DNA from: a virus
IMG/VR virus record: IMGVR_UViG_3300009496_000011
Span: 1-53,041 of that record
DNA: 53,041 nucleotides
Strand: one strand, 5' to 3'
Shown piece after piece: positions 3 through 53,041 of the stretch; within the stretch, counting starts at the first letter, position 1; each line of letters opens with the position of its first letter. The notes under the pieces were generated by a model, which was not told the DNA's origin, ran no database searches, and saw only the letters and a program-made list of their open reading frames with translations. Both the position numbers and the translations under genes were made by a program.

Positions 3-122
3 ATTGATGCATATAAGAAATCAATCAAGTTTTGGGAGAAGATGGGCTATGAACTAGAGAAAGAGTTTCCAGTGATGTATGGACATAAACAAGATTACAA
101 AACTGGAATAAAAGAACTATGA
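3..122 (+). CDS. C-terminal end of a GNAT-like acetyltransferase (partial)
   Basis: An open frame enters from the left edge and ends at the TGA at 120-122, giving 39 residues. The piece SIKFWEKMGYE resembles the last strand-helix-strand of GNAT N-acetyltransferases, where 'A-x-x-F-Y-x-K-x-G-F' is typical. The stop overlaps the next start as ATGA (119-122), so the two genes are translationally coupled. Only the tail is visible, so the acceptor substrate cannot be guessed and the family call rests on one short motif. Confidence 0.5.
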   Translation: MDAYKKSIKFWEKMGYELEKEFPVMYGHKQDYKTGIKEL

Positions 123-658
123 AATTTATAAAGACATTTGAGGATTGGAATAATGTATCGCCAGAACTAAAGGCTCACATCGATGAGGACCTTGACTTAA
201 CCAATTCATTCTTTAGACTGGGCAGTGAGGCCTATGCTAAACTTTTTGAAGAGGTAAAAGAGTACTGGGATAAAGGCAACATCATTCTTAAAGGTCCAAG
301 CGGTTGGATGGCTAAAAACCTTGAAGTTGGTAAGCCAGCAGTCTATAAAGAACGTGGCGGTAAGGCCAAGAAGGTTAAACTGGATTCACCAGAACGTGGT
401 GGCAATAAGAAGTTTATTGTCTATCGTAACACTGGTCGAACTGATGAAGACGGTAATATTCTAGCTAAGAAGATTGAATGGGGAGACCCGAAACTTGCAG
501 TTAAGAATGATGACCCTGGGGCAGCGGCTTCATTCTGGGCAAGACATAAATGTGACACTAAAGCTAAACAAGATCCTAATAAAGCCGGCTTCTGGGCTTG
601 TTATGGGCCAACACTTTTTGGCAAACAACTAGGGCTTAAATCAGATCAACCATGGTAA
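119..658 (+). CDS. Leader-bearing phage protein with H-x-C/W-x-C motif
   Basis: A 179-residue protein of unknown role. Its first residues, MKFIKTFEDWNN, match the capsid-targeting-like leader seen on five other proteins here. The C-terminal half (about residues 118-165) has a pattern EWGDP, then DDPGAAASFWARHKC, then GFWACYGP. This resembles a small phage-associated domain of unknown function (DUF5872-like, from memory) in which a His-x-Cys and a Trp-x-Cys pair may bind metal. It overlaps the acetyltransferase end by 4 bp and the next gene by 7 bp. The coding call is secure; the packaged-protein role is inferred from the leader only. Confidence 0.75.
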   Translation: MKFIKTFEDWNNVSPELKAHIDEDLDLTNSFFRLGSEAYAKLFEEVKEYWDKGNIILKGPSGWMAKNLEVGKPAVYKERGGKAKKVKLDSPERGGNKKFIVYRNTGRTDEDGNILAKKIEWGDPKLAVKNDDPGAAASFWARHKCDTKAKQDPNKAGFWACYGPTLFGKQLGLKSDQPW

Positions 659-957
659 CGCACGAAGAAATGATAGAGATGATTGAAGACCAGCGTAAAC
701 CCTTTACTGAAGAGCGCTACGATGGTTATATCATGCGTCATTTTGATTCAAGCTACCCGGAACACTTATTCAAATGGCACTGGGATGAAGAGGACCGAAC
801 AATAGAGGTTCTTGAAGACAATGACTGGCGCTTTCAGTATGACAATGAAATGCCAATTCCAATGCTAACAGGTGTGGATATTAATATCCCAGCTGGAACT
901 ATCCACAGAGTAATCAAAGGCACAGCTGTGTTAAGCGTAAAAATATTATTTGATTAG
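652..957 (+). CDS. Small cupin-like protein
   Basis: A 101-residue protein that looks like a single cupin barrel. The segment around residues 38-52 (HLFKWHWDEEDRTIEVLED) and the later PAGTIHRV near residue 80 match the two His-containing cupin motifs, where 'P-x-G-x-x-H' is the second metal-binding signature. No partner domain is present. It overlaps the preceding gene by 7 bp, suggesting cotranscription. The fold is a moderate guess; the ligand or reaction is unknown. Confidence 0.6.
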   Translation: MVTHEEMIEMIEDQRKPFTEERYDGYIMRHFDSSYPEHLFKWHWDEEDRTIEVLEDNDWRFQYDNEMPIPMLTGVDINIPAGTIHRVIKGTAVLSVKILFD

Positions 958-960
958 CAA

Positions 961-971
961 GATATATAAAA
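961..971 (+). promoter_or_regulatory. Putative late promoter box GATATATAAAA
   Basis: Lies in the 42-bp gap upstream of the acidic core-type gene (start at 1000). It belongs to the GATATATA family that recurs at other real gene gaps in this window and resembles the T4 late promoter box TATAAATA. The gap is otherwise A-rich with no Shine-Dalgarno sequence. Confidence 0.5.
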
Positions 972-999
972 CCTAAGCACAAAAATAAAACTAAAGAAA

Positions 1000-1584
1000 A
1001 TGGCTAGAAAAATTTTATCATTTGAGGAGTACTCAAAGAAAGTAAACGCACCAGACGTTAGTGAAGAAGAAACTGACGAGGTGGCAACTGAAGACAGAGC
1101 TGAAGAGATCGAGGACGATGGCATAGAGACGGCTAACGAAGAAGATGAAGACGAGTCTGAAGAACTAGAAGGCGAAGAGTCTGATGAGGACGAGGATGAA
1201 GACGAGGATGAAGACGAGGATGAAGACGAGGATGAAGACGAGGATGAAGACGAAGACGAGGACTCTGAAGAGGAGTCTGAAGAAGTTAAGTTAGCATCTG
1301 AAATGTTAAAAGAAGTCTACGAATCAGCGTGTAACGAAGCTAAAGCATATGAAGGTGATGATTACCAAGAACATACCGTAGAATCTTACATGAAAGAGAT
1401 GGCAGCTCTTAATGCTGGCATGATGGCTGAAATATATGAGTCTGCGTGTGACGGTGTTAAAGAAGGTGAAATGACTGTTGAAATGTACGAAGCATCATGT
1501 AACGGGATGAAAGAAGCATATGCTAAAAAGATGGATGAGATGATGGAAGCGTGGTCGGCTGATGTACCTGCTGCTGAAGACTAA
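1000..1584 (+). CDS. Highly acidic leader-bearing protein, prohead-core-like
   Basis: A 194-residue, very acidic protein. It starts with MARKILSFEEYSKK, a T4-like capsid-targeting leader. Residues about 20-95 are almost entirely Asp/Glu, including a run of Glu-Asp pairs encoded by a 12-bp tandem repeat. The C-terminal third carries three related units: EVYESACNEAK, EIYESACDGVK and EMYEASCNGMK. T4 gp67, a prohead core protein, is also small and acidic and has a leader, so a scaffold/core or internal role is plausible. Sequence identity to gp67 cannot be claimed from composition alone. It could instead be a DNA-mimic protein. Confidence 0.8.
   Translation: MARKILSFEEYSKKVNAPDVSEEETDEVATEDRAEEIEDDGIETANEEDEDESEELEGEESDEDEDEDEDEDEDEDEDEDEDEDEDEDSEEESEEVKLASEMLKEVYESACNEAKAYEGDDYQEHTVESYMKEMAALNAGMMAEIYESACDGVKEGEMTVEMYEASCNGMKEAYAKKMDEMMEAWSADVPAAED
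1189..1248 (+). repeat. Five perfect 12-bp tandem repeats (gacgaggatgaa)
   Basis: Five head-to-tail copies of gacgaggatgaa encode Asp-Glu repeats in the acidic protein; a degenerate sixth unit follows at 1249-1260. The repeat length is a multiple of three, so slippage would change the length of the acidic run without breaking the frame. Confidence 0.95.
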
Positions 1585-1606
1585 AATAAATAAAAATAAA
1601 TTAAGA

Positions 1607-2365
1607 ATGGCTAAAATATTTTACGTAACAGAAAGAACGCCAGATTATGCTCAGGTGAATTTCTTTAAGACAGAAAAAGAGGCTTTGGAATATGGTATCT
1701 CTGAATTACCACAATTCGACATGTATGACGAACCAACGAACGATGAAGAGGCTGATGGTGAAGAATGGTACCAAGGAGACTCTCTAACATTTAAAAAAGG
1801 AATCTTATTTTCATTTGAAGGTGGCGAGGTCTACGTTCAAGCAATGGAAGAAGACGCAGCTAGAGAATATGTTGAAGAGCTTGGTGAAGAAGGTGGAGCT
1901 ATTTTCTTTGATGGCTTTAGCAGAGGAATGTATGGTTATCTAGGCACAGCAGCTGACGGTAAAGGTTTCAAATGGGACTGGGATGGCTACGATCTTAATG
2001 AGTCAAAAAATGAAATACATAAAATGAAATACACAAAAACATTTGAATCATTTGTAAATGGTTCTACAAAAGAGCTTAACGAAAAAGTAAACGCATCAGG
2101 TTACATTAAAGCTGGTAAATTAGGTTATAACGATCAATTCCTAGGAAGACAATCACTTTCTAAAACATTATCATTAGATTTAGGTTTTGATAAAAAGAAC
2201 GAATTTGGTGGTGGAGATTGGATTGGATTCGATCACGTATCAATGTACGCTTCTGGTAAAAAGGGTGGAACTATAATAGATGACGCACTAACCGGTAAAT
2301 ATACATATGATGAGTTAAAGGCAGCAGCTGCTAAACACTTTGGCATTAGCGAATCAGGTAGTTAA
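1607..2365 (+). CDS. Unknown acidic N-domain joined to a leader-type domain, C-terminus broken
   Basis: The start at ATG 1607 (MAKIFYV) is preferred over an upstream in-frame ATG at 1562 because 1562 lies inside the acidic gene and 1607 has the usual A-rich leader. The protein is 252 residues. Residues 1-135 form one unknown acidic domain. At residue 140 (ATG 2024) comes MKYTKTFESFVNGS, which looks like a fresh capsid-targeting leader preceded by A-rich sequence. This may therefore be two genes joined without a stop, or one protein with an internal start. The frame ends early at 2365, and the expected continuation is found in the +1 frame (see 2358-2459). Confidence 0.65.
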   Translation: MAKIFYVTERTPDYAQVNFFKTEKEALEYGISELPQFDMYDEPTNDEEADGEEWYQGDSLTFKKGILFSFEGGEVYVQAMEEDAAREYVEELGEEGGAIFFDGFSRGMYGYLGTAADGKGFKWDWDGYDLNESKNEIHKMKYTKTFESFVNGSTKELNEKVNASGYIKAGKLGYNDQFLGRQSLSKTLSLDLGFDKKNEFGGGDWIGFDHVSMYASGKKGGTIIDDALTGKYTYDELKAAAAKHFGISESGS

Positions 2366-2459
2366 CGAAGGTCTTACTAAAAAAGATCTTAAAGATGTTT
2401 AAAAGCGTGGATATGGCGCAACATTAGATGACGGTGTTATTGAAAAGCCTGAGTACTAA
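2358..2459 (+). pseudogene. Out-of-frame continuation of the preceding gene
   Basis: Shifting frame by one base at 2357-2358 turns the ending ESGS-stop into ES-V-V-N-E-G-L-T-K-K-D-L-K-D-V. After a single TAA (2400-2402) the same frame continues with KRGYGATLDDGVIEKPEY and then a stop at 2457-2459. The VNEG piece matches the ESVNEA motifs of the 48551 gene product. One base insertion plus one base change would explain the broken C-terminus. A sequencing or assembly error is the other possibility. Confidence 0.5.
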
Positions 2460-2483
2460 GAACTACATACTATAAACTTTATA

Positions 2484-2514
2484 AAGGTCATGCATATAAT
2501 GCATGACCTTTTTT
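2484..2514 (+). terminator. Strong intrinsic terminator
   Basis: A perfect 12-bp stem (2484-2495 aaggtcatgcat against 2499-2510) with a 3-nt loop is followed by a T run (2509-2514). It separates the leader-protein cluster from the dCMP deaminase gene at 2527. Confidence 0.9.
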
Positions 2515-2526
2515 ATTTAAAGAAAT

Positions 2527-3039
2527 ATGCCAAGAATCGCAATTGAAAAAATATACATGCAGACAGCATACCAGTTTGCAAAGCTAAGCTATGCTAAAAG
2601 ACGCAAGGTTGGCTGTGTAATTGTTAAGAACCAACAATTAATCTCATTTGGCTATAATGGTATGCCGTATGGTTTTGATAACCAATGCGAGGATGACCAT
2701 ACTTTATACTATGAGGATCCAGAAGGTACTTTAGATCTAATCGAAAAAGGATATGAATGTAGTGATGGCTGCTGTACTAAAGAAGATGCTGTAACCAAGC
2801 GTGAGGTTCTACACGCAGAATCAAATGCTATTATGAAGGTTGCTAAGTCAACTATGAATTGCGATGGTGCTGAACTTTATACTACAACTTGCCCGTGTTT
2901 TGATTGTGCAAAATTGATTATTCAAGCCGGTATCTCAAAAGTCTACTACTCAGAAGACTATCGTGATATGAGTGGTGTAGAACTACTAAAGAAAGCTAAT
3001 ATTAACGTTGAAGAAGTTATCTGTTGGAACGACCTATAA
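2527..3039 (+). CDS. cd: dCMP deaminase
   Basis: A 170-residue zinc deaminase that converts dCMP to dUMP to supply thymidylate synthesis, as T4 Cd does. Catalytic motifs are His96-Ala-Glu98 and Pro123-Cys124-x-x-Cys127, giving the His/Cys/Cys zinc site and the Glu proton shuttle. The N-terminal stretch with VGCVIV and GYNGMP is typical of the family. Extra cysteines at 54, 78, 82 and 83 could form a second, structural zinc site as in phage deaminases. It follows a terminator and overlaps the helicase gene by 16 bp. Confidence 0.92.
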   Translation: MPRIAIEKIYMQTAYQFAKLSYAKRRKVGCVIVKNQQLISFGYNGMPYGFDNQCEDDHTLYYEDPEGTLDLIEKGYECSDGCCTKEDAVTKREVLHAESNAIMKVAKSTMNCDGAELYTTTCPCFDCAKLIIQAGISKVYYSEDYRDMSGVELLKKANINVEEVICWNDL

Positions 3040-4754
3040 AAGACATAATAGACCATGCACTAGAAACTAAAGTTTTTGGTGAGGACTTCTCTTTCAGGAG
3101 AGGTCAGCGTGAAGTGATTGAGCAGATTGTGACTGCTTATCAAGAAGATCCAGAATCTACAGTGGTGATTGATGCGCCAACTGGAACTGGTAAGTCACTC
3201 ATTGCTATGTGGAGCTCATACATCCTAAAAGAGCTGGGCAAGCGTGGCTATCTAGTGACTTCAGATCTAGCACTACAAGACCAGTATGAGAAAGACTTTA
3301 AGCGCCTTAGCCTAAACTGGCCAAGTATTCGAGGTGTTGATAACTATGAGTGCTTTGTCAACAGCTTACCATTTAGCCTCGGTGACTGTAAGATGAAAGG
3401 CATGAGCTATGAACAAGCTGAACAACTCTCTTGTTATGGTCACTGTGGCTACCTACAGAACAGAAGGCGTGCGATTGAACAACCAGTTGCTCTCTTAAAC
3501 TACAGCTTCTGGCTAATCCAACGTAACTACGTTCAGGCTAGAATGGACGAACAAGAGCGTGAGGCTCCGTTCAAGAAGCGTGACTTTGTCTTCTTTGATG
3601 AGGCACATAAAGTAGATGAGATTGTACAGAACCATTTTAGCGCGCGTATTGACGAGTCTATTATTGACCGAGTGGTTTACCTTAACAGGTTTATTAGTCG
3701 CCATAATATACCAGCTGAAACACAAACCAAGAATAGATTACAGGCAGTTGTACATGATCTAATGACAACTAAAGGTCGCGAGCCGCTCTTTAAAGCTATT
3801 CAAGAATTTAGAGGTATTGCTATTACATACCGAGCTGCACAAGATATTGCTAAGAAGACTGCTAAAAAGCGCTTTGGTCAGAAAACTATACCAAGTGATT
3901 GGGCATCCGCATTTACCGCTTTCGACCGCCTAAAGGACATCTACTGTAAGTTTGATGACTATGCTGACTTAATCAAAGATGTTGGCTTAGAAGCCATGGT
4001 AATTGACCAGCGAGAAGATGAGGCTAGATTTACATGTGTTGAAGAGGCTAAGATGATTCAGAAGTATCTACACGAACAAGCTGGCTTTAAAGTTTTTATG
4101 TCAGCGACAATTGGTGACCCAAGAGCTTATGCTAGAATCATGGGCATTAAAGGCGCTCGCTTTATTCGTATGGACAATTCATTTAGCTTTGAAAAGTCAC
4201 CAATAATTTTTGTCAACCGACATAAGCTAACTTATAGAGAGCGTGAAGCTTCACTGCCAAAGGTGGTTAAGATCCTGGATCAGATTATAAAGAAACATAA
4301 AGGCCAGCGTGGTATTATTCACTCGGGCTCATATCAGTTTACAAACTATATCAAACAGCATTCAATGCATACCTTTAGGCTAATGGACTATGAAGGTTCA
4401 AAGGAGAAGGCTGAGATGCTTGAACTCTTTGAGCAGAAAGAAGACTCTATTATCATGGGCCCTTCATTACTAGAAGGTCTAGACTTAAAAGACGGTATGA
4501 GCAGATTCCAGATCTTCTTTAAAGTACCTTATCCAAGTTTAGCAGATCCGTTGATTAAAGCTAAGCTCAACATCTCAAACGATTGGTATAACTGGAAGAC
4601 TGGCGTTTCAATTCAACAGGGTGTTGGCCGAAGCGTAAGAAGCGTAGATGACTGGGCAATTACATACGTGATTGACGCTAGTTTTATGAGTCTGATAAAT
4701 AAACCAGACTTCTTCCCGCCTTCATTTAAAGAACGTATTAAGATAGTAAAATAA
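3024..4754 (+). CDS. DinG/XPD-family iron-sulphur DNA helicase
   Basis: A 576-residue superfamily 2 helicase. Walker A is APTGTGKS (51-58) and the DEAH box is FFDEAH (190-195). Four cysteines between them (110, 122, 137, 141) fit the Fe-S cluster domain of DinG/XPD helicases. Late motifs include GPSLLEGLDL and QGVGRSVRS. These enzymes unwind DNA 5'-3'; a role in phage replication or repair is inferred. No ATG occurs before residue 62, which lies after Walker A, so the TTG at 3024, overlapping the deaminase gene by 16 bp, is the only reasonable start. Confidence 0.88.
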   Translation: MERPIKDIIDHALETKVFGEDFSFRRGQREVIEQIVTAYQEDPESTVVIDAPTGTGKSLIAMWSSYILKELGKRGYLVTSDLALQDQYEKDFKRLSLNWPSIRGVDNYECFVNSLPFSLGDCKMKGMSYEQAEQLSCYGHCGYLQNRRRAIEQPVALLNYSFWLIQRNYVQARMDEQEREAPFKKRDFVFFDEAHKVDEIVQNHFSARIDESIIDRVVYLNRFISRHNIPAETQTKNRLQAVVHDLMTTKGREPLFKAIQEFRGIAITYRAAQDIAKKTAKKRFGQKTIPSDWASAFTAFDRLKDIYCKFDDYADLIKDVGLEAMVIDQREDEARFTCVEEAKMIQKYLHEQAGFKVFMSATIGDPRAYARIMGIKGARFIRMDNSFSFEKSPIIFVNRHKLTYREREASLPKVVKILDQIIKKHKGQRGIIHSGSYQFTNYIKQHSMHTFRLMDYEGSKEKAEMLELFEQKEDSIIMGPSLLEGLDLKDGMSRFQIFFKVPYPSLADPLIKAKLNISNDWYNWKTGVSIQQGVGRSVRSVDDWAITYVIDASFMSLINKPDFFPPSFKERIKIVK

Positions 4755-4761
4755 TATAATT

Positions 4762-4971
4762 ATGGGATTTAACAAATTATGGGTGCCGGCAATCGAGGAC
4801 CTAGAAGAGAGTAAGTGTAAGATGGGTGAACATGAGTTCGGTATGCATTGGCATAAGAGGCTGATGAAGACTGATGCAATCATTGGAGATAGCTCGTCTG
4901 TTGAGATGATTAAACAATTTGCAGAAAAGGCATATAATGTTCAGAAAGATAATCAAAAAGATAAAGAATAG
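4762..4971 (+). CDS. Small hypothetical protein
   Basis: A 69-residue protein with no recognised domain. It carries several His and acidic residues (GEHEFGMHWHKR, around residues 22-33) and a Lys/Asp-rich tail. It sits 7 bp after the helicase and 1 bp before the next start, so it is likely cotranscribed. Function unknown. Confidence 0.6.
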   Translation: MGFNKLWVPAIEDLEESKCKMGEHEFGMHWHKRLMKTDAIIGDSSSVEMIKQFAEKAYNVQKDNQKDKE

Positions 4972-4972
4972 T

Positions 4973-5599
4973 ATGTCTACACAAGTTAAAGACAAGCAAC
5001 AAGAAATCTGGTACGTTTGGGCTAAATCCGAACGTGTTGGTGATATTGTACAGCCTGCTGAAGTACAAGATGATGCTAAATGGCTTAAGTTTACAGATGG
5101 TACTCAGATCAACAAGAGTATCGTTAAAGAATTCTTAATGTCGGCTAAATCTGAGCAAGAGGCTAAGGTTTATTCACTAGACTTAAACCCAATTGGCTCG
5201 AGTGTTAATAGCGCTGCTAAACCTGTTGCGGTAAAACAAGAGGCACCAAAGCAAGAGCGTAGAATTACAGACGGTAAGTCAGCACCAACTCCAGAAGTTA
5301 ACGTAATGATGGAGATGTTGAAGAAGATCAGCAAGAAGAACAAGGCTGCAATGCTAGTTGAGGTTAATATCCCAGCAAAAGAGGTCTATGAAATGCTACA
5401 GGATCAAATGGACATGGAAGCAACAGAACTGAATGAACAGATAGGACTGCTTGTAGAAAGCCAGATAGATAACCTAAGAGAACAACTTAAAGAACAAATC
5501 GAAACTTTTATTTCTAATTATTATACAAATGAGTCAAGAAACAACAAACGAGCAAAATCAAACTCAAGCAACGCCACAGGCACAGATGCCTCTGAATAG
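4973..5599 (+). CDS. Hypothetical protein with coiled-coil C-terminus
   Basis: Starts at ATG 4973 (MSTQVKDKQQ), which avoids overlap with the preceding gene; an earlier in-frame ATG exists at 4919. The protein has 208 residues. The first 50 contain IWYVWAKSERVGDIV, suggestive of a small beta domain. A Lys/Pro/Ala linker follows, then a long helical, probably coiled-coil part (about 105-190). The end is Asn/Ser-rich. No family recognised. Confidence 0.65.
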   Translation: MSTQVKDKQQEIWYVWAKSERVGDIVQPAEVQDDAKWLKFTDGTQINKSIVKEFLMSAKSEQEAKVYSLDLNPIGSSVNSAAKPVAVKQEAPKQERRITDGKSAPTPEVNVMMEMLKKISKKNKAAMLVEVNIPAKEVYEMLQDQMDMEATELNEQIGLLVESQIDNLREQLKEQIETFISNYYTNESRNNKRAKSNSSNATGTDASE

Positions 5600-5960
5600 A
5601 CGTCAGAGAAGACTTATGATGAAGCAGAATGGAATGCTTAAGTATTTAAGCAAGCTAAGCTTTTTCCATCCAACCAAAGTTGCGATTAGACGGCAGAACA
5701 TGGAGAATGGCCGTAAGATACAGCAAGCCAGATTAGATGCTGCTGAAAAAGCTCAAGCTGAAAGACTTGAGGCTGTGTTAGAAAGAATGAAAGATACTTG
5801 GTCTAATATTGGTTACAATAAAGAAGAGATTGCAATGCTAGAAGAAGCATGGGCAATGACCATTATTAAAGACAAAGAAACTTACCGAGCTGACGTGAAA
5901 CAGTCTAGAAAATTGATGAAAGAGGCTGCAGCGTCATTAGCAGCTAGAAACAACAAGTAA
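5529..5960 (+). CDS. Hypothetical basic helical protein
   Basis: A 143-residue protein with a Gln/Thr-rich disordered start, a basic patch RRQRRLMMK near residue 25 and a long Ala/Glu/Lys helix. It overlaps the preceding gene by 71 bp. An alternative start at ATG 5586 (MPLNRRQRR) would shrink the overlap to 14 bp. Function unknown. Confidence 0.6.
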   Translation: MSQETTNEQNQTQATPQAQMPLNRRQRRLMMKQNGMLKYLSKLSFFHPTKVAIRRQNMENGRKIQQARLDAAEKAQAERLEAVLERMKDTWSNIGYNKEEIAMLEEAWAMTIIKDKETYRADVKQSRKLMKEAAASLAARNNK

Positions 5961-5963
5961 GAT

Positions 5964-6284
5964 ATGATTACGGTTAGTATTGAACCTGCTGATAACGGGG
6001 TCATCAAGTATGTAGTTGATGATAACGTAAATGGCGCCGGAGAAGAACATGTATCTCGTGTTGTCTATGATTTAGACAACGATGAAGAAAGAATAAATCT
6101 AGTCAACCTGGTCCAAGATATTATCTTGGACCTAGGGTTAGAAACTGGAACTGAAATTGACAAGCATATGTTCAGTGCTAAAACTGAATGGGGTGCTAAA
6201 TATAACCCGTCAATCAAAGAAACAAAAGAGAGAATCAAAAGGCTTGAGGCTGAAATTGAAAGTCTCTCGGCGCAACTAAAGTAA
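5964..6284 (+). CDS. Small hypothetical protein with coiled-coil tail
   Basis: A 106-residue protein with a beta-rich acidic N-terminal part and a C-terminal heptad helix (about 85-106). Its stop overlaps the next ATG as TAATG. A 23-bp near-perfect inverted repeat lies inside it at 6110-6132. Function unknown. Confidence 0.65.
   Translation: MITVSIEPADNGVIKYVVDDNVNGAGEEHVSRVVYDLDNDEERINLVNLVQDIILDLGLETGTEIDKHMFSAKTEWGAKYNPSIKETKERIKRLEAEIESLSAQLK
6110..6132. repeat. 11-bp perfect inverted repeat with 1-nt centre
   Basis: Arms ggtccaagata (6110-6120) and tatcttggacc (6122-6132) flank one T. The repeat lies within coding sequence and is not followed by a T run, so it is not a terminator. Confidence 0.85.
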
Positions 6285-6691
6285 TGAATTTTAGGATAGA
6301 ATGTGTTTGGTGTAAAACAAGAACTGAGTTCGATAAATTGTATAGGTCTAATGGTCATGACTTAGCAATATCTTATTCCGATATTTTTAATAGACTGATG
6401 AAGAGTGATCCGTATAACGAGGAGCCTTCTGATGTTATCATTACGCTTTATATCCGTAAAATGATTAAGAGAGCACTCAACTCTAAAATAGAGAGTGATT
6501 CTAATGAGTTTTCGATTGCTTATATGTTCAACAACTTAGACCAAGATTCAGTTGCTGGCGTGCATGATTTTATGACTGAACTATTTGATTCAGAGATCGA
6601 ACTTAACCTAACTGTAATTAATAGGTCGGATTATCCTAAACATGGAGTCTTAAGCAAATTCGACAATGTAAAATTCATTGACAATGATTAA
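6284..6691 (+). CDS. Hypothetical protein
   Basis: A 135-residue protein, mixed alpha/beta by eye, with an N-terminal pair of cysteines (FRIECVWCKT, residues 3-12). It is coupled upstream by TAATG and overlaps the next start as ATGATTAA. No family recognised. Confidence 0.65.
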   Translation: MNFRIECVWCKTRTEFDKLYRSNGHDLAISYSDIFNRLMKSDPYNEEPSDVIITLYIRKMIKRALNSKIESDSNEFSIAYMFNNLDQDSVAGVHDFMTELFDSEIELNLTVINRSDYPKHGVLSKFDNVKFIDND

Positions 6692-7283
6692 GCACAAACT
6701 TTTTGCAAAAGGTGAAAAGATACACGCGCTAATCTCAACTACACAAAAACCAAACGTACTTTTCCCAGTCAGAGCTATCATCTACGACGTTAAGTTCGAC
6801 GACATCAACCCACAGTATCAGATTAAAGTACTTAAGTTCTACGACCAGATCTACTTTTTAAAGCAGAATCTGTTTGGCGGCCGATTCATTAAAGACTTTG
6901 AAGGCCGAGATACGAAGATCAATCTAAAACGTGAAAACTATTCTAAAGTAAAGACCTTAGAAGACGAGGTCTTTAGTGGCCAGAACTGGCAAAAATACAT
7001 GATTGTTGTTGACTCTGTCTTTTGCACAAGGACTAGAGCAGAACAAGAAGAGCTCTTCAATAATATCCAATCCTTTCATATTGAGTTAAAACTGAAAGAA
7101 CTCTATGAACTAGTTAATCGTACGGTCTATTCTAAAGGCCCATACTATTTCCATACTCGAGGTGAATACATTAAAGCACTAGAGAAGTTTTTAGGAGATA
7201 GATACCCTAAGCAAAAAGACTGGGTAGACGAATTGCTTTACCGCCCAGATACATCTGAGATGGACAACTCTGAGTGGGTTTAA
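6684..7283 (+). CDS. Hypothetical protein
   Basis: The ATG at 6684 (MIKHKLFAKG) is chosen over an in-frame TTG at 6678. The product has 199 residues and is rich in Tyr, Phe and Lys, with no transmembrane segment. It is the last gene before a gap holding a probable late promoter, so it may be the end of the 2527-7283 transcription unit. No family recognised. Confidence 0.65.
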   Translation: MIKHKLFAKGEKIHALISTTQKPNVLFPVRAIIYDVKFDDINPQYQIKVLKFYDQIYFLKQNLFGGRFIKDFEGRDTKINLKRENYSKVKTLEDEVFSGQNWQKYMIVVDSVFCTRTRAEQEELFNNIQSFHIELKLKELYELVNRTVYSKGPYYFHTRGEYIKALEKFLGDRYPKQKDWVDELLYRPDTSEMDNSEWV

Positions 7284-7292
7284 GTAGAGCTG

Positions 7293-7303
7293 GATATATA
7301 TAA
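7293..7303 (+). promoter_or_regulatory. Putative late promoter box GATATATATAA
   Basis: Located 18 bp upstream of the first gene of the baseplate cluster (start 7321) in a 37-bp gap. It is a member of the recurring GATATATA family and marks the change from small unknown genes to structural genes. Confidence 0.55.
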
Positions 7304-7320
7304 AAAAGAATAGCAGCTTA

Positions 7321-42951: not shown

Positions 42952-43320
42952 ATGAAGACATTTGACAAATACTTAGTTGAAGAACATGTAACAGAAACTG
43001 ACATGGCACTAATTAAAGAGGGCCTACAAGAAGAATGGACACCAGAACTAGAGGCCCAAGTAGATGCCGCTATTGATGAATTCATGAAAAAATATTCAGA
43101 TGCTGAAGGTAATTTGAGTATTGAAGCCCTTAACGAGGAGATTACAAACGAGGGTTTATTAGGCTCTATTATCGGTGGTTTAACTGGATTTGCATTAGGT
43201 AAGTCAGTTGGTAAGATGCTTGCCAAAGTACTTGGTGTTCAGAAGGGTGTATTATATGATCTATTAACTTCAAGACTAGTAGGTGCTGCTTTAGGCGCTA
43301 GTCTTGGTAAAAGATTCTAA
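42952..43320 (+). CDS. Leader-bearing glycine-zipper protein
   Basis: A 122-residue protein. It starts with MKTFDKYLVEEH, close to the T4 internal-protein leader MKTYQEFIAEA. Two x-x-E|G sites follow: LIKE23|G24 and ITNE67|G68. After the second comes a hydrophobic, Gly-rich region (GSIIGGLTGFALGKSVGKML) with GxxxG spacing to the end, as in membrane-inserting glycine zippers. Cleavage at 67 would release a 55-residue membrane-active peptide. Packaging and cleavage are inferred. Precedes the RuvC-like gene with no gap. Confidence 0.7.
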   Translation: MKTFDKYLVEEHVTETDMALIKEGLQEEWTPELEAQVDAAIDEFMKKYSDAEGNLSIEALNEEITNEGLLGSIIGGLTGFALGKSVGKMLAKVLGVQKGVLYDLLTSRLVGAALGASLGKRF

Positions 43321-44344: not shown

Positions 44345-44378
44345 GGAATTAAACATTTAAAAAGTAAATTAAAGTAAA

Positions 44379-46356: not shown

Positions 46357-46559
46357 ATGAATTAATGATTGACAACGAATTAGACGATTTTTATAGAGAC
46401 CGCGACCGATTCAAAGGTCATAAGCTCTTAATTGACTTTGAGCAAATTGAGCTTAAGTTTACACCAAAGGATTTTAGTGCCGGCAAGCCAAAGATGAAGA
46501 AGAAACAGACGGCTGCCAAGTACATAAAACCTAGTAGAGACAAAGGTTCTCTATTTTAA
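46344..46559 (+). CDS. Small hypothetical protein
   Basis: 71 residues: an acidic first half (DELMIDNELDDFYRDRD) and a Lys-rich second half (KPKMKKKQTAAKYIKPS). It overlaps the primase end by 13 bp and lies 11 bp before the UvsY-like gene. It could be a replication or recombination accessory; nothing recognised. Confidence 0.6.
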   Translation: MVHIDELMIDNELDDFYRDRDRFKGHKLLIDFEQIELKFTPKDFSAGKPKMKKKQTAAKYIKPSRDKGSLF

Positions 46560-46570
46560 AGATATATTGA

Positions 46571-46993
46571 ATGAGCAAAGAAAAGATACTAGAGCTTGAC
46601 AAAAAATTAAGCACCCAACGCACCAACTGGTCTAATAAGATTAAAGAACTTGCCAAAGGCCTAAAGAACATTAATCAACTAGAAGATGTAATATCGGAAG
46701 TGTTATCTACAAGACAGATCTTGATAGACAACATGGCCTATATCAACATGAAGGTAAAAGAGCAGAAAGCCACAATTGGCTCTAGATACAGAGAGGCATA
46801 TATAAGATACTACGAATACGACTATAAACTAGGCGAGAAGCAGAAAGAACGCTTTATTGAGACTGATCTCAGAGATGAGAACATGATTCTTTCACACCTA
46901 GAAAATCAACTTGAATTTTTGAAAGAGTCGGTTAAGACTCTAGATAATATGGGCTTTGCTATTAGAAATAGGCTAGCTCTAAAAGATCTATAA
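46571..46993 (+). CDS. uvsY: Probable recombination mediator UvsY-like
   Basis: A 140-residue helical protein, equal in size to T4 UvsY (137). It has a coiled N-terminal part, a YYEYDYKLGEKQ stretch, then LENQLEFLKESVKTLDNMGFAIRNRLALKD, similar to the UvsY end where a 'GFAIKH' motif occurs. In T4, UvsY loads UvsX on gp32-coated DNA. Position directly before the UvsW gene supports the call, since uvsW and uvsY are neighbours in T4. No UvsX is in this window. Confidence 0.65.
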   Translation: MSKEKILELDKKLSTQRTNWSNKIKELAKGLKNINQLEDVISEVLSTRQILIDNMAYINMKVKEQKATIGSRYREAYIRYYEYDYKLGEKQKERFIETDLRDENMILSHLENQLEFLKESVKTLDNMGFAIRNRLALKDL

Positions 46994-46998
46994 TAAGA

Positions 46999-48513
46999 GT
47001 GGAACTTACACTAACGGAAAATAAACAGCTATTACGAATTGACTCGGCTACAGACATGGAGCTCGAGCAACTCAACATATCCTTAAATAAGAGGATTGAA
47101 TCATGGCGTTTTAACCCGTTGGTAAAGAAAGGTCTTTGGGATGGCTACATCTCATATATTAAAGACGATACGTGGATCCCGTCAGGCCTATGGCGTGAAG
47201 TTATGTTGATTGCTAAAGATTATAACTATGATCTAAAACTGAACGGCATCACTGAACTATTTGACCGCAACATTCAACAAGAGGCTTTTGAAGAATGGGC
47301 GTTAGACTTTTTTGATGGTCACCCAGACGGTATCTCACCTAGAGACTATCAGATGGACGCAGCTTTTAACATCCTAAAATTTAGGCGCTGTTTAGCAGAG
47401 CTGGCTACATCAGCCGGTAAGACCTTAATCTCATTCTTGACTGTGGCTTATACGTTAGAGAAGCAGAAGGCCGAGAAGATACTCTTTATTGTACCTAACG
47501 TTTCGCTTGTAGTTCAAGCATCTGAAGACTTCTTAGATTATAACTGGCAAAACAGAGTTAGTATTAAAGTACAGCAGATCTACAGTGGCCAGAAGATTAG
47601 AGCTGGGCGTAATGTTGTGATCGGCACATACCAGTCGCTTGTTAAGAAGAAGGCTGAGTACTTCGATCAGTTTGATGCAGTTATCATTGACGAGACACAT
47701 AAAGCTAAGTCACAGTCCATTAAAACCATTCTATCTAAGTGTAAGAATGCAGACTATAGATTCGGACTATCAGGTACGATCCCTAAACCAGGTTCATTGG
47801 ACCGATTAACCTTAATGTCACATACAGGCCCTGTAATTACAGAGGTGACTGCCAATTACCTACAGAATGAAGGTCACATTGCTAAATGTAATGTAAAGGT
47901 AATTAAGATGGACTATGCTACTGAGTCTACAAAAGAGGCTTTTAGAGAGATGGCATTCAATAAATATGAAAGCAAAGATGTCTTTAAATTTGAACAAAAT
48001 TACGTTATCAATTCGCCAGGTAGGCTCAACTTTATTTGTAACGTTATTTCCAGAATACCACGCAATTCCCTTGTACTTTTCCACCGCATTGAACATGGTC
48101 AGCGTATTTATGAGAAATTGCGCCAAGAGAGTGACAAACGGGTCTACTATGTCGACGGCGGTACCGATAAAGATATTCGCGAAGAATACAAGAAGAAGAT
48201 GGAGGCGGGTGAAGAAGTGGTGATTGTAGCCTCTTATGGTACATTTTCGACCGGTATTTCAATTAAAAAGATCCATAACATATTCTTTACAGAGTCGTTT
48301 AAGTCTGAAGTTATCATTCGCCAGTCGATTGGTCGAGGGCTTAGACAACACTCTTCAAAAGACTCAGTTAACATTATAGATTTTGTAGATGATATTAGTC
48401 TGCCGGACTGGGATAACTACCTGATTCGACATGCTAAAGCTAGACAGAAAATCTACAAGGAACAGAAGTTCAAGTACGATATTAAAAACGTCACTTTTGA
48501 AGGTGATATATAA
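46999..48513 (+). CDS. uvsW: UvsW-type recombination helicase
   Basis: A 504-residue SF2 helicase, the length of T4 UvsW (503). Motifs: Walker A ATSAGKT (136-142), IIDETHKAKS (DETH 231-234), SGTIPKP, and the late motif SEVIIRQSIGRGLRQHSSK. UvsW unwinds and branch-migrates recombination intermediates and R-loops. The start is the GTG at 46999, 5 bp after the UvsY-like stop; no suitable ATG lies nearby. The gene ends with a GATATATAATA box overlapping its last codons. Confidence 0.9.
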   Translation: MELTLTENKQLLRIDSATDMELEQLNISLNKRIESWRFNPLVKKGLWDGYISYIKDDTWIPSGLWREVMLIAKDYNYDLKLNGITELFDRNIQQEAFEEWALDFFDGHPDGISPRDYQMDAAFNILKFRRCLAELATSAGKTLISFLTVAYTLEKQKAEKILFIVPNVSLVVQASEDFLDYNWQNRVSIKVQQIYSGQKIRAGRNVVIGTYQSLVKKKAEYFDQFDAVIIDETHKAKSQSIKTILSKCKNADYRFGLSGTIPKPGSLDRLTLMSHTGPVITEVTANYLQNEGHIAKCNVKVIKMDYATESTKEAFREMAFNKYESKDVFKFEQNYVINSPGRLNFICNVISRIPRNSLVLFHRIEHGQRIYEKLRQESDKRVYYVDGGTDKDIREEYKKKMEAGEEVVIVASYGTFSTGISIKKIHNIFFTESFKSEVIIRQSIGRGLRQHSSKDSVNIIDFVDDISLPDWDNYLIRHAKARQKIYKEQKFKYDIKNVTFEGDI

Positions 48514-48515
48514 TA
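48505..48515 (+). promoter_or_regulatory. Putative late promoter box GATATATAATA
   Basis: Overlaps the end of the UvsW gene and lies 35 bp before the ATG at 48551. Third copy of the identical 11-mer. It would drive the leader-protein group downstream separately from the replication block. Confidence 0.6.
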
Positions 48516-48550
48516 CTGTAATAACAAATTTAAAAACAAAGAAACATATA

Positions 48551-50116
48551 ATGGAACGATTAGTAACATTTGAACAATTTGCTGAGCAAAAGGCAAAAAA
48601 AGATCAGGTTCAACTTGAGGAAGAGTTGAATGCAAAAAGGGAAGCTTCAGCAAATAGCTTTAAGGACTTATTATCTGAATTCGGTGTAACTTCAATGAGT
48701 GAATTATCTGAAGAAGATAAGCCTAAATTTAACGAGAGATTAGGTACTTTAACAGAATCTGCACTATTGCTAGAAGGCACAAGATCTCAAGTAGGGAAGA
48801 TCGATAAGAAAGGTAGGATTACATCGGTCTATGTACACTATGATGGTTATCCAGACCACATGGTACCAATGATTAAGAACTACGACAAGAAAGGTGTTGA
48901 CCAACTAGTTAAACTAGGTAAGTCTGGTATCTCATATTTAGACAAGAATATCGGTAAAAAGCAAGACTTTAATAGTCCAGTAAGGGGAACCACTCTATTC
49001 TACGGTAGAGATCGCGGAGAGAACAAAGATATGACTACTACATGGACCAACGCAGCTGACATTAAAGGTTACTTTAAAGAAGTTGCTAACGACGGTGGAG
49101 CTGAATACGTTTATCTATATGATGAACGAGATGGAAAGTGGTACATGGGAGATACTTATGGTAGCCCTGTATTACAAGTAGTTGAATCAGTAAACGAGGC
49201 TGTTATTGCAATCAGTGGTAAGAGAACAGCCAAGAAAGTAGCTTTAAGACTAACCAGATTATTTGATACCAAGTTAACAGCTCTTGCTGCGGATAAAGTA
49301 ACAATGCTAGGCTTCTTGAAAGAGTTATATTTCTATGCAATGGAAGACGCTAACTTTTCACGCGAGGCCAATGTGACAATGAACATGATTAAGGGTAAGA
49401 TTAGCCCGCTAGAAGTTAAAGTAGAAGGCTTGGATGGTGAAGTTATTAGAATTTCAGCTAAGACGATAAAAACTATAGCAGACAAATACTACTCAGATCT
49501 TGCAAATGCAGGTGATTGGTCAGGTATTGGTATTACTGAAGGTTTTGCAATGTACTTAGATCAAATCGGAGAGTCTAACATGGCACAAGCACTTCTTGAC
49601 TCTTTTAATGCACAGTTTGAAGGTGAAGAGAAAAGAGTTTCTAGAACTGAAAAGCTTTATGAATTATCACAGAGATTAGAATCTACCAATGAGGCTAAAG
49701 AATCAGTAAACGAAGCTAAATACGATAAGAAGAAGCTTTTAAAGTTAATCAAGAATCATGATGATGCTGAAATCCTAGTTAATGGAAAATGGTACATCAT
49801 CTATAATCCAGATAACGGTAATGACGAAAACACAGATATGTGGAATGACGATTCAGTATTTGCATTAGATCAAGATGGTGAAGAGTTTGAAATCAATTAC
49901 AAAGATATTGAGCATTTTAAAGAGTCTGTTGAAGTAAACGAGACTGAAATTAAATCTGATGATGAATTCAAAGAATATGCATTCACAATACTTCAAAAAG
50001 CATTCGGAGCAGACTTTGATGAAGCAAAAGCGCAAGAAGTTGTTGATGGTATCTTAGGTAAAGTTGATGGCGATTATGGTAAGGCTGCAGGTATTTTGCA
50101 AAGCTCACTTGGCTAA
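48551..50116 (+). CDS. Multi-domain leader-bearing protein, probable capsid-internal polyprotein
   Basis: Start at ATG 48551 (MERLVTFEQFAEQK); an in-frame ATG at 48431 lies inside the UvsW gene and lacks the leader pattern. 521 residues. The leader (1-14) is followed by helical sequence to LLLE75|G76. Module 76-216 includes SVYVHYDGYPDHMVPMIKNY, a small phage domain of unknown function. Module 217-381, a helical/beta unit, is followed by TNE381|A and VNE388|A. Module 389-462 is an unknown beta unit (AEILVNGKWYIIYNP). The last, 465-521, is helical, ending LGKVDGDYGKAAGILQSSLG. Boundaries repeat an ESVNEA-type motif that fits a prohead protease site. Function unknown. Confidence 0.7.
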   Translation: MERLVTFEQFAEQKAKKDQVQLEEELNAKREASANSFKDLLSEFGVTSMSELSEEDKPKFNERLGTLTESALLLEGTRSQVGKIDKKGRITSVYVHYDGYPDHMVPMIKNYDKKGVDQLVKLGKSGISYLDKNIGKKQDFNSPVRGTTLFYGRDRGENKDMTTTWTNAADIKGYFKEVANDGGAEYVYLYDERDGKWYMGDTYGSPVLQVVESVNEAVIAISGKRTAKKVALRLTRLFDTKLTALAADKVTMLGFLKELYFYAMEDANFSREANVTMNMIKGKISPLEVKVEGLDGEVIRISAKTIKTIADKYYSDLANAGDWSGIGITEGFAMYLDQIGESNMAQALLDSFNAQFEGEEKRVSRTEKLYELSQRLESTNEAKESVNEAKYDKKKLLKLIKNHDDAEILVNGKWYIIYNPDNGNDENTDMWNDDSVFALDQDGEEFEINYKDIEHFKESVEVNETEIKSDDEFKEYAFTILQKAFGADFDEAKAQEVVDGILGKVDGDYGKAAGILQSSLG

Positions 50117-50137
50117 TCAATAAAAAGAACTACAACA

Positions 50138-51421
50138 ATGAGAAAATTACTTTCATATCAAGAATTTTTAGTTGAGAAAGCATCTGCTCCGGTAGATGCA
50201 AATCTCATTCTAGAGGGCGGTGCAGCTGGTCATATGTCGCATCCGTTCGACGAAAAAGAATTGACATTTGGTGACTTTAAAAAGATCGTTGAGTTTGGCT
50301 TAAGAGGCGAACTTAACTTTGAAGAAGAAGTTACCGAAAAGACCGACGGACAAAACTTATTTGCAACTGTAATGGATGGTGAGGTTAAATTTGCCAGAGG
50401 TATTAATGATATGAGGAATCCAATGGATCTAAAAACTTTTAAACAAAAGTTTGAAGCACATAAAAGTCCACTAGTAAGAGATACTTTTCAATTCGCAGCA
50501 GAAGATTTAGCAAATTCATTAAATAAGCTACCAGCAAAAGACTTAGAGGTTTTTAATAATGGTAAGAGTTTTATGAATATGGAGCTAATCTACTCGAAGA
50601 ACCCAAATGTAATTTATTACGACAGGGATGTTATTCAATTCCATGGTATTAAACATACTGATGGTGATGGTAATGAAATAGGAGATGAAACAAAATACGC
50701 AGCATCAATTGCAAAGGTTCTTAAAGACCTTAAACTTGATATGGGTAAAACATTTTCAATTATCCCACCACAAATCATTAAAATGGGTAAGGATATTGAC
50801 TTCGATGCAAACAAAGCTAAATTCCTTAAACAAATTGAAGATCTACGTAAACAGTACAACTTAACAGATGCTGATGAAGTTTCTATGTATCATGAAATGT
50901 GGTGGAGAGAAACTATCGATAAGAACTTTCCGGATCTAACACAAGATCACAAAGAAGGACTTTTATTAAGATGGGCGTATGATGATAAGAAGACTCTTAA
51001 TATAAGAAGTCTTGATAAAGAGTTAGGTAAAGATAAAGCTGCTCTAATTAAAAAGTTTGACAAAGAAGATGTAAAGAAAAAACAAAAAGAGAACATGAGA
51101 CCTTTTGAAGATTTATTTCTTGAACTAGGTAGTGTTATCTTAAAGAACGCATCTAACTTTGTGGCTGCTAATCCAGCTGCAGAAATGCAGAGACTACAAA
51201 AGCAATTAAAAGATGAAGCGGAAGCAGTTAGAAAAAGCGGTGATGTTTCGGACATTGAAAAAGTTGCTAAAGAACTTGAAAGACTTGAAAGAATCGGAGG
51301 TATCGAATCAATTATACCAACAGAGGGTATTGTCTTTAGATACAAAGGCAAGACTATGAAGCTAACAGGAACATTCGCTGCAGTTAACCAGCTTATGGGT
51401 TTTATAAAATACGGTAGATAA
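50138..51421 (+). CDS. Leader-bearing nucleotidyltransferase of the ligase/capping fold
   Basis: A 427-residue protein starting MRKLLSYQEFLVEKA, very close to the T4 internal-protein leader (MKTYQEFIAEA). LILE26|G27 is a possible cleavage site. After AGHMSHPFD come the covalent nucleotidyltransferase motifs: motif I EKTDG (Lys68), NMELIY (Glu149, motif III), EGIVF (396-400, motif IV) and MKLTG (Lys408, motif V). Such enzymes form a lysine-AMP or -GMP intermediate, as in RNA and DNA ligases. A long helical insert separates motifs III and IV. Substrate unknown: RNA, DNA or protein. Followed closely by a second ligase-like gene. Confidence 0.75.
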   Translation: MRKLLSYQEFLVEKASAPVDANLILEGGAAGHMSHPFDEKELTFGDFKKIVEFGLRGELNFEEEVTEKTDGQNLFATVMDGEVKFARGINDMRNPMDLKTFKQKFEAHKSPLVRDTFQFAAEDLANSLNKLPAKDLEVFNNGKSFMNMELIYSKNPNVIYYDRDVIQFHGIKHTDGDGNEIGDETKYAASIAKVLKDLKLDMGKTFSIIPPQIIKMGKDIDFDANKAKFLKQIEDLRKQYNLTDADEVSMYHEMWWRETIDKNFPDLTQDHKEGLLLRWAYDDKKTLNIRSLDKELGKDKAALIKKFDKEDVKKKQKENMRPFEDLFLELGSVILKNASNFVAANPAAEMQRLQKQLKDEAEAVRKSGDVSDIEKVAKELERLERIGGIESIIPTEGIVFRYKGKTMKLTGTFAAVNQLMGFIKYGR

Positions 51422-51431
51422 AACATAACAC

Positions 51432-53041
51432 ATGGCATTACAAAACCTTAAGACATATTTTGCGTCGACTAACAGAAACGACTTCATGCAACTTCTAGAA
51501 AACACATGCGTTGTTTCTGAGAAGATTCAAGCATCCTCATTCCACGTTAGAAAAACTAACAGCGGTTTTGAGTATTATAAGAGCGGTTCTAAGGACGCAA
51601 TGAACAAAGTTGATAGAACTATTGTAAAGTACTATGAAAATGCCATCAAGTACTTTAAATCAATTTCTGGTGACATTGCTGAACAGATGCCAACTGACTG
51701 GAAGTTTGGCTTTGATTATATGGTTGATAAGAAGACTGTAGACATTGAATACGACAAGCTACCAAAGAACCACCTGATCTTAACACATATTCAGGTGATG
51801 AGTCCTAGCAATCCTACTGAAATCAAGAAGGTGATTAGAGACCCAAACATTCTTTACAAGTGGGCAGACATTTTAAACGTACAGAGACCGCAGGTTATTT
51901 TCCAAGGTAAATTGTCAGACTACCAGAAAGAAGAGTTGGTTAAACTTTTAGAAATGAGCGAAACTCAATTCAAGAAAGAGTTTACAGACGCTTCTTTTAC
52001 TAGAAAGATCTATAATATCTTTAATAAAGGCTTGAACTCAACAGGTCTTAATCTAGATTTAGAAAAAGACATTGACTCTTTAATCTTAAACTTCTTTGAC
52101 GGTAAGTCAGTTAAGAACTTTAAGCTTGAGAGATTTGACAAGGCTGAAAGAGAAAGCCGCAATCCATCTGACATGTATCAGATCTCAATCTTAGATCTAG
52201 TAGAATACATCTCACAATACGATATTCCTAGCATTGAACTTAAAGAAGATGATACCGACATAAGGTACATCGAACTTATTTCAATCCTATTTAACTCATA
52301 TGTAGAAAAGCACGCAACAAAATATATTGGTGCTAGCTTTGACTCAGCAGACTTTGCACAAGGCGAAGAGTTTGCACTCAATACTACATTTATTAAAAAC
52401 GAAAAGACACTATCACTGGTTCAGAAAGATGTTCTAGCAGAGCTTTACAAGATTGCGCTGGGTTCATTTAGAAAGAAGAGAACTAAAGAGACTGATATTA
52501 TCAACGCTGCTTTAATGGAGCAGATCAACGAGATCGTTGCTAAGATTGAAGCTCTAGTGATGGGCGAAACAAACGAAGGCGACGTTATGAACTTCAACAC
52601 CTATCTAAAGACACAGAATTTACAAACACAAGTAAGCCCAATTACTGAAGCATTAACTGTTAAATATGCTGAACAAGGCAAGAAGCCTGTTAACATGTTC
52701 GTGGGTAGATTTCAACCATTTACGCTTGGACATGCTAAAGTGATTGAGACGATTAGTAAGCAGAATGGATTCCCAGTAGTTATTTTTCTAGTAAAGGCAA
52801 AAGCTAAAAAGAAAGAAGATGCTTTTAAGAGACCTTATGATGAAGATCTACAGATTGAGATGCTAAACAAATTAAAGTCAAAGTACCCAATTAAGGATGT
52901 ATATGTAATTGAAGGTTCTGCTGGAATTGATAAAATGTTTAACGCAATGAGAGGAGATGGATATGAACCAGTCCTTTGGGGAACAGGAACCGACAGGATG
53001 AAAAACTATGGATTTCAAGTAAACAATCAACAATACAGAGA
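51432..53041 (+). CDS. Ligase-like domain fused to NMN-adenylyltransferase-like domain (partial)
   Basis: Starts at ATG 51432 (MALQNLKTYF), 10 bp after the previous stop, and runs off the right edge after 536 codons. Residues 28-45 (VVSEKIQASSFHVRKTNSG) resemble ligase motif I, 'EK-x-D-G-x-x-F', but with Gln-Ala in place of Asp-Gly; Lys31 would be the nucleophile. A central helical part follows. From about residue 420, NMFVGRFQPFTLGHAKVIE is the nucleotide-binding motif of cytidylyltransferase/NMN-adenylyltransferases. An ITE|A site sits between the two parts. Possibly NAD or nucleotide-linked end processing; speculative. Confidence 0.75.
   Translation, partial: MALQNLKTYFASTNRNDFMQLLENTCVVSEKIQASSFHVRKTNSGFEYYKSGSKDAMNKVDRTIVKYYENAIKYFKSISGDIAEQMPTDWKFGFDYMVDKKTVDIEYDKLPKNHLILTHIQVMSPSNPTEIKKVIRDPNILYKWADILNVQRPQVIFQGKLSDYQKEELVKLLEMSETQFKKEFTDASFTRKIYNIFNKGLNSTGLNLDLEKDIDSLILNFFDGKSVKNFKLERFDKAERESRNPSDMYQISILDLVEYISQYDIPSIELKEDDTDIRYIELISILFNSYVEKHATKYIGASFDSADFAQGEEFALNTTFIKNEKTLSLVQKDVLAELYKIALGSFRKKRTKETDIINAALMEQINEIVAKIEALVMGETNEGDVMNFNTYLKTQNLQTQVSPITEALTVKYAEQGKKPVNMFVGRFQPFTLGHAKVIETISKQNGFPVVIFLVKAKAKKKEDAFKRPYDEDLQIEMLNKLKSKYPIKDVYVIEGSAGIDKMFNAMRGDGYEPVLWGTGTDRMKNYGFQVNNQQYR

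Follow-up and report, generated by a model that had tools for sequence, protein, structure and literature searches.

Leader genes in the window

The stretch analyzed here (the window, meaning all 53,041 nucleotides of IMG/VR record IMGVR_UViG_3300009496_000011) is a 53-kb fragment of a marine phage of the T4 superfamily, whose genes include baseplate and tail-tube genes, a UvsW-type helicase, and a gp32-type single-strand binding protein. It carries several genes whose products begin with a short, related N-terminal leader. According to our analysis this leader is, with a probability of about three in four, a T4-type capsid-targeting signal which has been greatly expanded and would preload an interchangeable set of proteins into the phage head. 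Over positions 1-7313 and 12745-53041 the window is 96 to 97% identical to a longer IMG/VR record of 176,489 bp (G001), and the part in between is diverged. By capsid protein, the closest sequences are the uncultured LR756500 (51%) and the Prevotella Lak phages (~33%), and the nearest annotated isolate is Tenacibaculum phage PTm1. Five phage records (G001, G005, G009, G003, and G006) were compared; they may themselves be fragments and were chosen for their length among relatives carrying the ligase gene described below, not at random. Gene starts were taken from a simple longest open reading frame (ORF) caller, with in-frame ATGs within 45 residues also allowed. The profile used to score leaders has 13 columns and draws on 29 leaders from four other phages, with every gene that has a homologue in the window or in G001 left out.

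The six N-terminal strings from which the sequence-only reading had derived a leader family are all present, starting at positions 119, 1000, 2024 (internal), 42952, 48551, and 50138. Among the 90 candidate starts of the window, the independent profile gives the top four places to 42952, 119, 48551, and 50138, with scores of 7.2, 6.7, 4.6, and 3.0 and with 0.0016, 0.003, 0.020, and 0.008 of shuffled N termini scoring as high, respectively. The internal leader at 2024, tested separately, is the best in the window (score 17.9; 0 of 20,000 shuffles). These five leaders stand above shuffled N termini; the one at 1000 does not. The strict core, by which we mean the T4-type pattern [FY]xxF[ILV]xE, is found in one of the six (50138), and a looser form is found in two (42952 in addition), so that the window's own leaders are a weak sample of the family. 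The location of the leader genes at both ends of the window, on which the sequence-only reading had remarked, is real, but it merely marks where the window edges cut into clusters of such genes. In all five genomes leader genes are adjacent to one another more often than under shuffling (p of 0.026 or less), and locus L274 holds thirteen of them between 2861 and 10817.

The window genes and the tandem repeat listed below, and the gene at 50138 as well, are on the plus strand. At positions 1 to 122 the window edge truncates a gene, of which the part encoding the C terminus remains; the translation of 3-122 is identical to the C terminus of a G001 protein of 306 amino acids (19947-20867), which has two leaders, one N-terminal, MKINTTYNDFLNEKK, and the other internal, MKFVKLFEEFVTEKK. 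The C-terminal part of this G001 protein appears GNAT-like, by eye only. The gene at 119 to 658 encodes a leader protein of 179 amino acids, MKFIKTFEDWNN, in which the aromatic pair is kept and the Glu at the cut position is absent; its homologues in G005 (20201) and G009 (42928) retain FENWEN and FEDWNE, respectively.

The gene at 1000 to 1584 encodes a very acidic protein of 194 amino acids, MARKILSFEEYSKK, which is a candidate prohead-core protein. A long Asp-Glu repeat, differing slightly in G001, occupies window positions 1180-1300 within it. The orthologues, identified by BLAST and gene order, read FEEYVREA in G005, FEQFLSEM in G009, FEEFVSEM in G006, and FEEYAANKK in G003, so that a canonical leader is found in three of the four further orthologues examined. 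The G001 orthologue consists of 43% Asp plus Glu. When proteins of at least 150 amino acids are ranked by density of gp21-type cleavage sites, the G001 orthologue comes second, behind the protease-scaffold ORF described below, and those of G005, G009, and G003 rank first, second, and third in their respective genomes. Such a density agrees with a core protein being cut into pieces, and the acidic protein at 1000 is probably a part of the head core.

The ORF at 1607 to 2365 is a fusion, in which an upstream domain (1607-2023) continues in frame into a leader gene (2024-2365); the Met at 2024 is likewise in frame within the longer ORF 1562-2365. The internal leader, MKYTKTFESFVN, has Gly in place of the cut-site Glu; the body that follows it (2024 to 2365) forms a short stand-alone leader ORF in G005 (73416), L045, and L048 and lies within longer ORFs elsewhere. 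A near-identical 14-bp tandem repeat, ATGAAATACATAAA and ATGAAATACACAAA, spans the fusion point (2010 to 2037) and is also present in G001. Minus the second copy, the upstream frame would run into a stop within the leader gene, and we infer that the repeat may have removed an overlapping stop.

Towards the right end, the gene at 42952 to 43320 adjoins a tail-tube gene and encodes a leader protein of 122 amino acids, MKTFDKYLVEEH, with a Gly-zipper-like C terminus (Gly-zipper_Omp match of 6.8e-4, below the curated cutoff); homologues with a leader score of at least 5 occur in all five phages. The leader protein of 521 amino acids at 48551 to 50116, MERLVTFEQFAEQK, matches phrog_1987, a family of unknown function, over residues 76-202. 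Its start is an ATG inside a longer ORF (48431-50116), past the end of the helicase ORF (48513), and its relatives align from that Met. The gene at 50138 to 51421 is treated with the candidate cargo.

Leader family in five related phages

In the five phages the leader takes the form M-K-H-[IV]-K-L-F-E-x-F-[ILV]-N-E-[ASGK], or a variant of it, in 13 to 32 genes per phage. Genes with the strict core at their first start codon number 12 of 218 in G001, 7 of 156 in G005, 5 of 220 in G009, 5 of 184 in G003, and 19 of 297 in G006. For internal Met residues the corresponding counts are 3 of 1031, 2 of 779, 2 of 1012, 0 of 849, and 0 of 987, and the shuffling expectation is 0.10 in G001 and 0.16 in G006; the enrichment at gene starts is far above chance in all five. 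At a profile score of at least 4 the same genomes, in the same order, hold 19, 17, 13, 18, and 32 leader proteins belonging to 19, 17, 13, 17, and 32 body clusters, and some of the low-scoring ones are certainly false matches; at a score of at least 8 there are 13, 11, 13, 13, and 31. Internal leaders are few (10 in the five genomes; reversed proteins give 1 and shuffled ones 2). At the DNA level, the leader pattern has at least 120 matches in viral contigs versus 2 in the prokaryote genome collection, one of which lies on a short contig with G001-like phage genes, as judged by eye.

Among more distant relatives, few or no leaders were found in the stretches examined of PTm1, Lak-A1, LR756500, and the Microcystis phage Mel-JY01, with single profile matches in Lak-A1 (16.9) and LR756500 (9.5). 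A search of 50,697 phage records with a 30-residue double leader, which is an insensitive test, returned one weak place, in LR756500 (E=5). On the side of the host, a gene at the right end of G009 (L137:18460-18737, that is, G009 178460-178737) starts like a gene (L289:4090-4692) which adjoins a leader gene on a short contig of a Flavobacteriales metagenome-assembled genome, and this likeness is a weak hint at the host.

Similarity to the T4 signal and to gp21-type cleavage sites

When the profile was run over the T4 genome, IPIII ranked first of 581 candidate starts (16.1), followed by gene 61.1 (13.7) and IPII (12.9), with gp22 fifth (7.2) and IPI sixth (7.1). The likeness to T4 internal-protein leaders, which had been proposed from a comparison by sequence only, is thus borne out by an independently built profile. 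For the IPIII leader, targeting is reported to depend mainly on residues 4 and 7 and processing on residues 8 and 10, gp21 to cut after L/I-x-E, and Asp at position 10 to leave targeting working and to block processing (PMC9026906). The residues conserved here, namely F/Y, F, I/L/V, and E, correspond to these targeting and processing positions. The Glu of the leader is followed by one of A, G, S, and K in 214 of the 300 distinct leaders, compared to 1171 of 4254 background [LIVM]xE sites, and the scaffold tails of four phages have the same preference (62 of 122 [LIVM]xE sites). Since the profile that gathered the 300 leaders includes the post-Glu position, the fair figure is that of the seed leaders, which were chosen without that position and have A, G, or S after Glu in 21 of 29.

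The second-ranking T4 protein, gp61.1 (54 amino acids; L276:18966-19130), begins MKTFKEFIKED and outranks both IPII and IPI; it may be an unrecognized packaged T4 protein. Gene 61.1 adjoins 61.2, and the region holding the two is called a possible anti-toxin-antitoxin island in PMC9391042.

Head genes of the T4 type are present in the lineage. The gp21 family (PF03420) is found in 14 of 16 related records, G001 included, and gp23 (PF07068) in 11 of 16, where the records are possibly fragments; the window itself does not reach the protease region. G001 has a portal protein (phrog_213), a gp21-family protease (phrog_207, PF03420), and a major capsid protein (phrog_138, PF07068), in the order portal, acidic leader gene, protease-scaffold fusion, major capsid protein, leader gene, which resembles T4 20-67-68-21-22-23. 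The acidic leader gene at G001 104357 occupies, between portal and protease, the place of T4 gp67/gp68 and probably encodes a part of the head core, and the leader gene at 108732 comes after the capsid gene. Protease and scaffold-like tail form a single ORF of 734 amino acids (L118:4769-6973, that is, G001 104769-106973), with spaced VAEK/LAEK cut-like sites; the tail holds 27 cut-like sites versus a shuffled mean of 7.5. In the annotation of PTm1 a similar protease-scaffold fusion is found.

Tagged bodies and candidate cargo

The proteins behind the leader (the bodies) were surveyed in 274 loci covering 3.59 Mb, which partly overlap and many of which were fetched because they bear leaders. 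At a score of 12, 567 of 4285 called genes pass, corresponding to 335 after joining bodies at 90% identity and to 157 body clusters. Representatives of 147 of the 157 clusters were aligned (3 of the ten others start at a locus edge) and have the consensus MKHIKLFExFxNE with nearly no majority residue beyond it. These 147 body types have little but the leader in common, and in the five genomes clusters are about as many as proteins, which upholds the earlier statement that the tagged proteins are otherwise unrelated. Most bodies have no Pfam match. Thirty-five Pfam families are found among the 147 body types at E values of 0.001 or lower; among the 25 families listed, 24 occur on one member each, and the single-member domains comprise Tad3, DNA ligase, RimK-type ATP-grasp, lysozyme, zeta/AAA_33, GNAT, 2H, and cytidylyltransferase. 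The lysozyme domain, of phage type, stands behind a packing leader at L213:5418-6242. The bodies have a median length of 137 amino acids and a median charge of -0.013 per residue.

Tad3 (PF25185, anti-Thoeris) and Acb1-like proteins (PF23474, anti-CBASS) were searched for in records mostly fetched for holding leaders. Tad3 was found in 4 of 46 records, with a leader on all four; the copy at L274:2861-3610 scores 78.4 bits against a curated cutoff of 27. Acb1-like proteins were found in 16 of 49 records, 9 of them narrowly over the cutoff (27.5 to 31.5 bits versus 27). The leader score is at least 10 in 12 of the 16, three of which are identical over the 45 residues shown, and the remaining four have merely a weak F-x-x-F-like start. 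The CCA-adding-type enzyme of G001 (PolyA_pol, 3.9e-34) has a weaker leader, MQLKTFTEFQMVNEA (score 4.9). When homologues of tagged bodies are taken once each and only where the N terminus can be compared, 339 of 434 reach a leader score of at least 8, and those below 8 include weak variants, as in many members of the ligase family, and truly untagged proteins. A supposed untagged body at L249:1590 was rejected owing to a stop codon inside a leader.

The leader protein at 50138 to 51421 (427 amino acids) has the strict core in its leader, MRKLLSYQEFLVEK, and is predicted to adopt an RNA-ligase-like fold with an invariant EKTDG. Its relatives occupy 241 places in viral contigs, and the best 80 of these yielded 44 distinct N termini. 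The loose aromatic-pair pattern is present in 43 of the 44, followed by a linker of variable length, and strict conservation starts at GGAAGHM, which is immediately preceded by [LIVM]xE in all 44. In the window protein a second cut site is predicted after residue 26, between LILE and GGAAGHM, and cleavage there by a gp21-type protease would leave a mature N terminus of Gly-Gly. The AlphaFold2 model, built from 39 sequences, has a mean predicted local distance difference test score of 83, with low confidence at residues 1-6 and 8-31. E67-K68-T69-D70-G71, which contains the Lys-x-Asp-Gly motif, is invariant in the 39 sequences. No match was found in Pfam or PHROGs, and Foldseek alone is borderline (best E of 1.0e-3, TM ~0.2). 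In VIA-align the first 40 matches are all ligases, the best being the Naegleria gruberi RNA ligase (Z of 10.4 over 189 residues, root mean square deviation of 4.2). The model thus assigns the protein a covalent nucleotidyltransferase/RNA ligase fold, and together with the motif it indicates that the leader precedes an enzyme-like domain. The gene that follows (window 51432-53039) has a cytidylyltransferase-like domain. In Mel-JY01 (L284:11243-13162) a ligase homologue lies within one ORF annotated as cytidylyltransferase-like, and since this ORF joins both, the two activities may work together.

Interpretation and alternative explanations

We propose that the prohead core recognizes the leader during head assembly and draws the tagged protein inside, where the gp21-family protease would cut behind the terminal Glu of the leader ([ILV]-N-E, followed by A, S, G, or K); the freed protein would stay in the head and enter the cell along with the DNA. 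A large, changeable, and mostly unrelated set of proteins would have acquired and kept the tag in this marine lineage. For its early steps this scheme relies on the T4 precedent and the shared residues, and for ejection and host targets on the T4 internal proteins and the domains found; head entry, cleavage, ejection, and host function are accordingly stated here by analogy. The reading of the leader as a T4-type signal, already put forward before this analysis, gained support from the T4 profile match, the gp21 protease, the gp23 capsid protein, and leader ends that are mostly of gp21 type. The Tad3, Acb1-like 2H, CCA-adding-type, RNA-ligase-like, lysozyme, and kinase-like proteins look like ready-made effectors, and the occurrence of one domain in tagged and untagged form suggests that such a protein may either be preloaded or be made once infection is under way. 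We lean, if only slightly, towards the wider proposal of a head preloaded with a modular arsenal. Gain of a 13-residue leader would turn a protein into virion cargo freed by the prohead protease. The cargo would counter several immune systems before phage gene expression, among them cyclic-nucleotide signaling (Tad3, Acb1-like), and would repair RNA (RNA-ligase-like, CCA-adding-type), with the same inhibitor either preloaded or newly made.

Several observations weigh against the reading of the leader as a packaging signal. The leader at 1000 scores -3.1, no better than shuffles (0.11), and taken by itself is at chance. Four of the six window leaders (119, 1000, 2024, and 48551) have no Glu at the cut position; such proteins might be packed and cut elsewhere, or remain uncut. 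T4 gp67, gp68, gp21, gp23, gp24, and Alt do not match the profile (gp67, -15.5; gp68, -9.3; Alt, -7.1). No strong leader was found in two stretches of PTm1 (~100 of 225 kb; best score, 5.1) or in 30 kb of Mel-JY01 (best score, 5.4), and an untagged Tad3 is encoded in G003, which lies outside the 46-record search (L144:19203-19799, that is, G003 139203-139799; 75 bits). The bodies are not small basic proteins (17 of 157 basic, 53 acidic, with no difference from other genes), and they are therefore not filed here as IPI-III homologues. The idea that the leader had spread as a tag stands at the protein level, where bodies are unrelated and one domain can be tagged or untagged, but at the DNA level codon agreement among leaders is barely above expectation (G006, 0.59 versus 0.56; G001, 0.53 versus 0.49; G003, 0.69 versus 0.58; G005, 0.59 versus 0.52). 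Recent cassette copying was rejected, as it has little codon support outside G003.

Among other explanations, the tagged proteins might mainly be head-assembly parts which are taken in, broken down, and gone by the time DNA is packaged, with no delivery. This would agree with the two G001 leader genes adjoining the protease and capsid genes, with the many gp21-type sites in the orthologues of gene 1000, and with the high score of T4 gp22 itself. We nevertheless deem it unlikely, since 157 body clusters are too many and too variable for assembly parts and several tagged proteins are enzymes or immune inhibitors. Moreover, no excess of internal cut-like sites over other genes is seen for leader proteins as a class (p=0.73); in G001 and G005 a few genes stand out in such sites, the scaffold tail and the acidic protein among them. 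The missing excess also counts against our own reading, and on the same result we rejected a polyprotein scheme in which long leader proteins that have NEA linkers would be cleaved many times over.

Less probable still is that the leader is a general N-terminal amphipathic helix that serves to attach proteins to membranes or tails, to control their turnover, or to start translation. In its favor, the consensus looks amphipathic, identity in the upstream 25 bases is slightly higher for leader genes (0.37 to 0.42 versus 0.34 to 0.37), and most window leaders are missing the cut-site Glu. On such a view, however, it would be hard to see why T4 internal proteins and scaffold come near the top of the whole T4 genome, why the family mostly ends in gp21 specificity, and why the DNA pattern is nearly absent from the prokaryote genome collection. 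Chance or composition, in the form of short Lys/Phe/Glu-rich starts in an AT-rich genome, could account for the leader at 1000 and for some plainly false low scorers; for the family as a whole it is very improbable, given the internal-Met and shuffled controls in five genomes.

Relation to known systems and significance

The T4 internal proteins IPI, IPII, and IPIII have the same short N-terminal leader (in IPIII, MKTYQEFIAE before the cut and A after it), with an aromatic pair, an Ile/Leu-x-Glu end, unrelated bodies, and gp21 in the genome. Each of the three is reported to block a type IV restriction enzyme, and T4 internal proteins to disable GmrSD enzymes (PMC12373910); at least 10 internal proteins are reported for related phages, compared to three in T4. 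The proteins studied here differ in their number (13 to 32 per genome), in a longer MKHIKL head, in bodies that are not basic, and in the presence of enzymes and inhibitors of other immune systems among the bodies. The T4 core proteins gp67, gp68, gp22, and Alt likewise adjoin portal, protease, or capsid genes, are acidic, and hold several cut-like sites, but only gp22 among them matches the profile; Alt is described as a packaged enzyme with cut ends (PMC9026906). Unlike in T4, the scaffold is here fused to the protease, as it is in the PTm1 annotation. The ejection proteins of phiKZ and SPN3US and the Dar proteins of P1, which the same source describes as head packaged and in some cases cut by a gp21-like protease (PMC9026906), are similar by description. 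For Tad3 and Acb1, the family matches lie over or near the curated cutoffs, and here these proteins stand mostly behind a packing leader. The tag is of a known kind; no description of its scale, of the variety of cargo, or of the immune-signaling inhibitors was recognized in searches of the open-licence PMC literature.

If this reading is true, a 13-residue motif would be enough to tell, with no more than a sequence at hand, which of its proteins a phage brings into the cell, and more than 100 unknown protein families of marine phages would become ranked candidates for factors of first-minute host takeover and antidefense. Phage heads could also be loaded with proteins of choice by using the leaders as targeting signals, and the size and changeability of the T4-like injected proteome, a long-standing question, would become testable.

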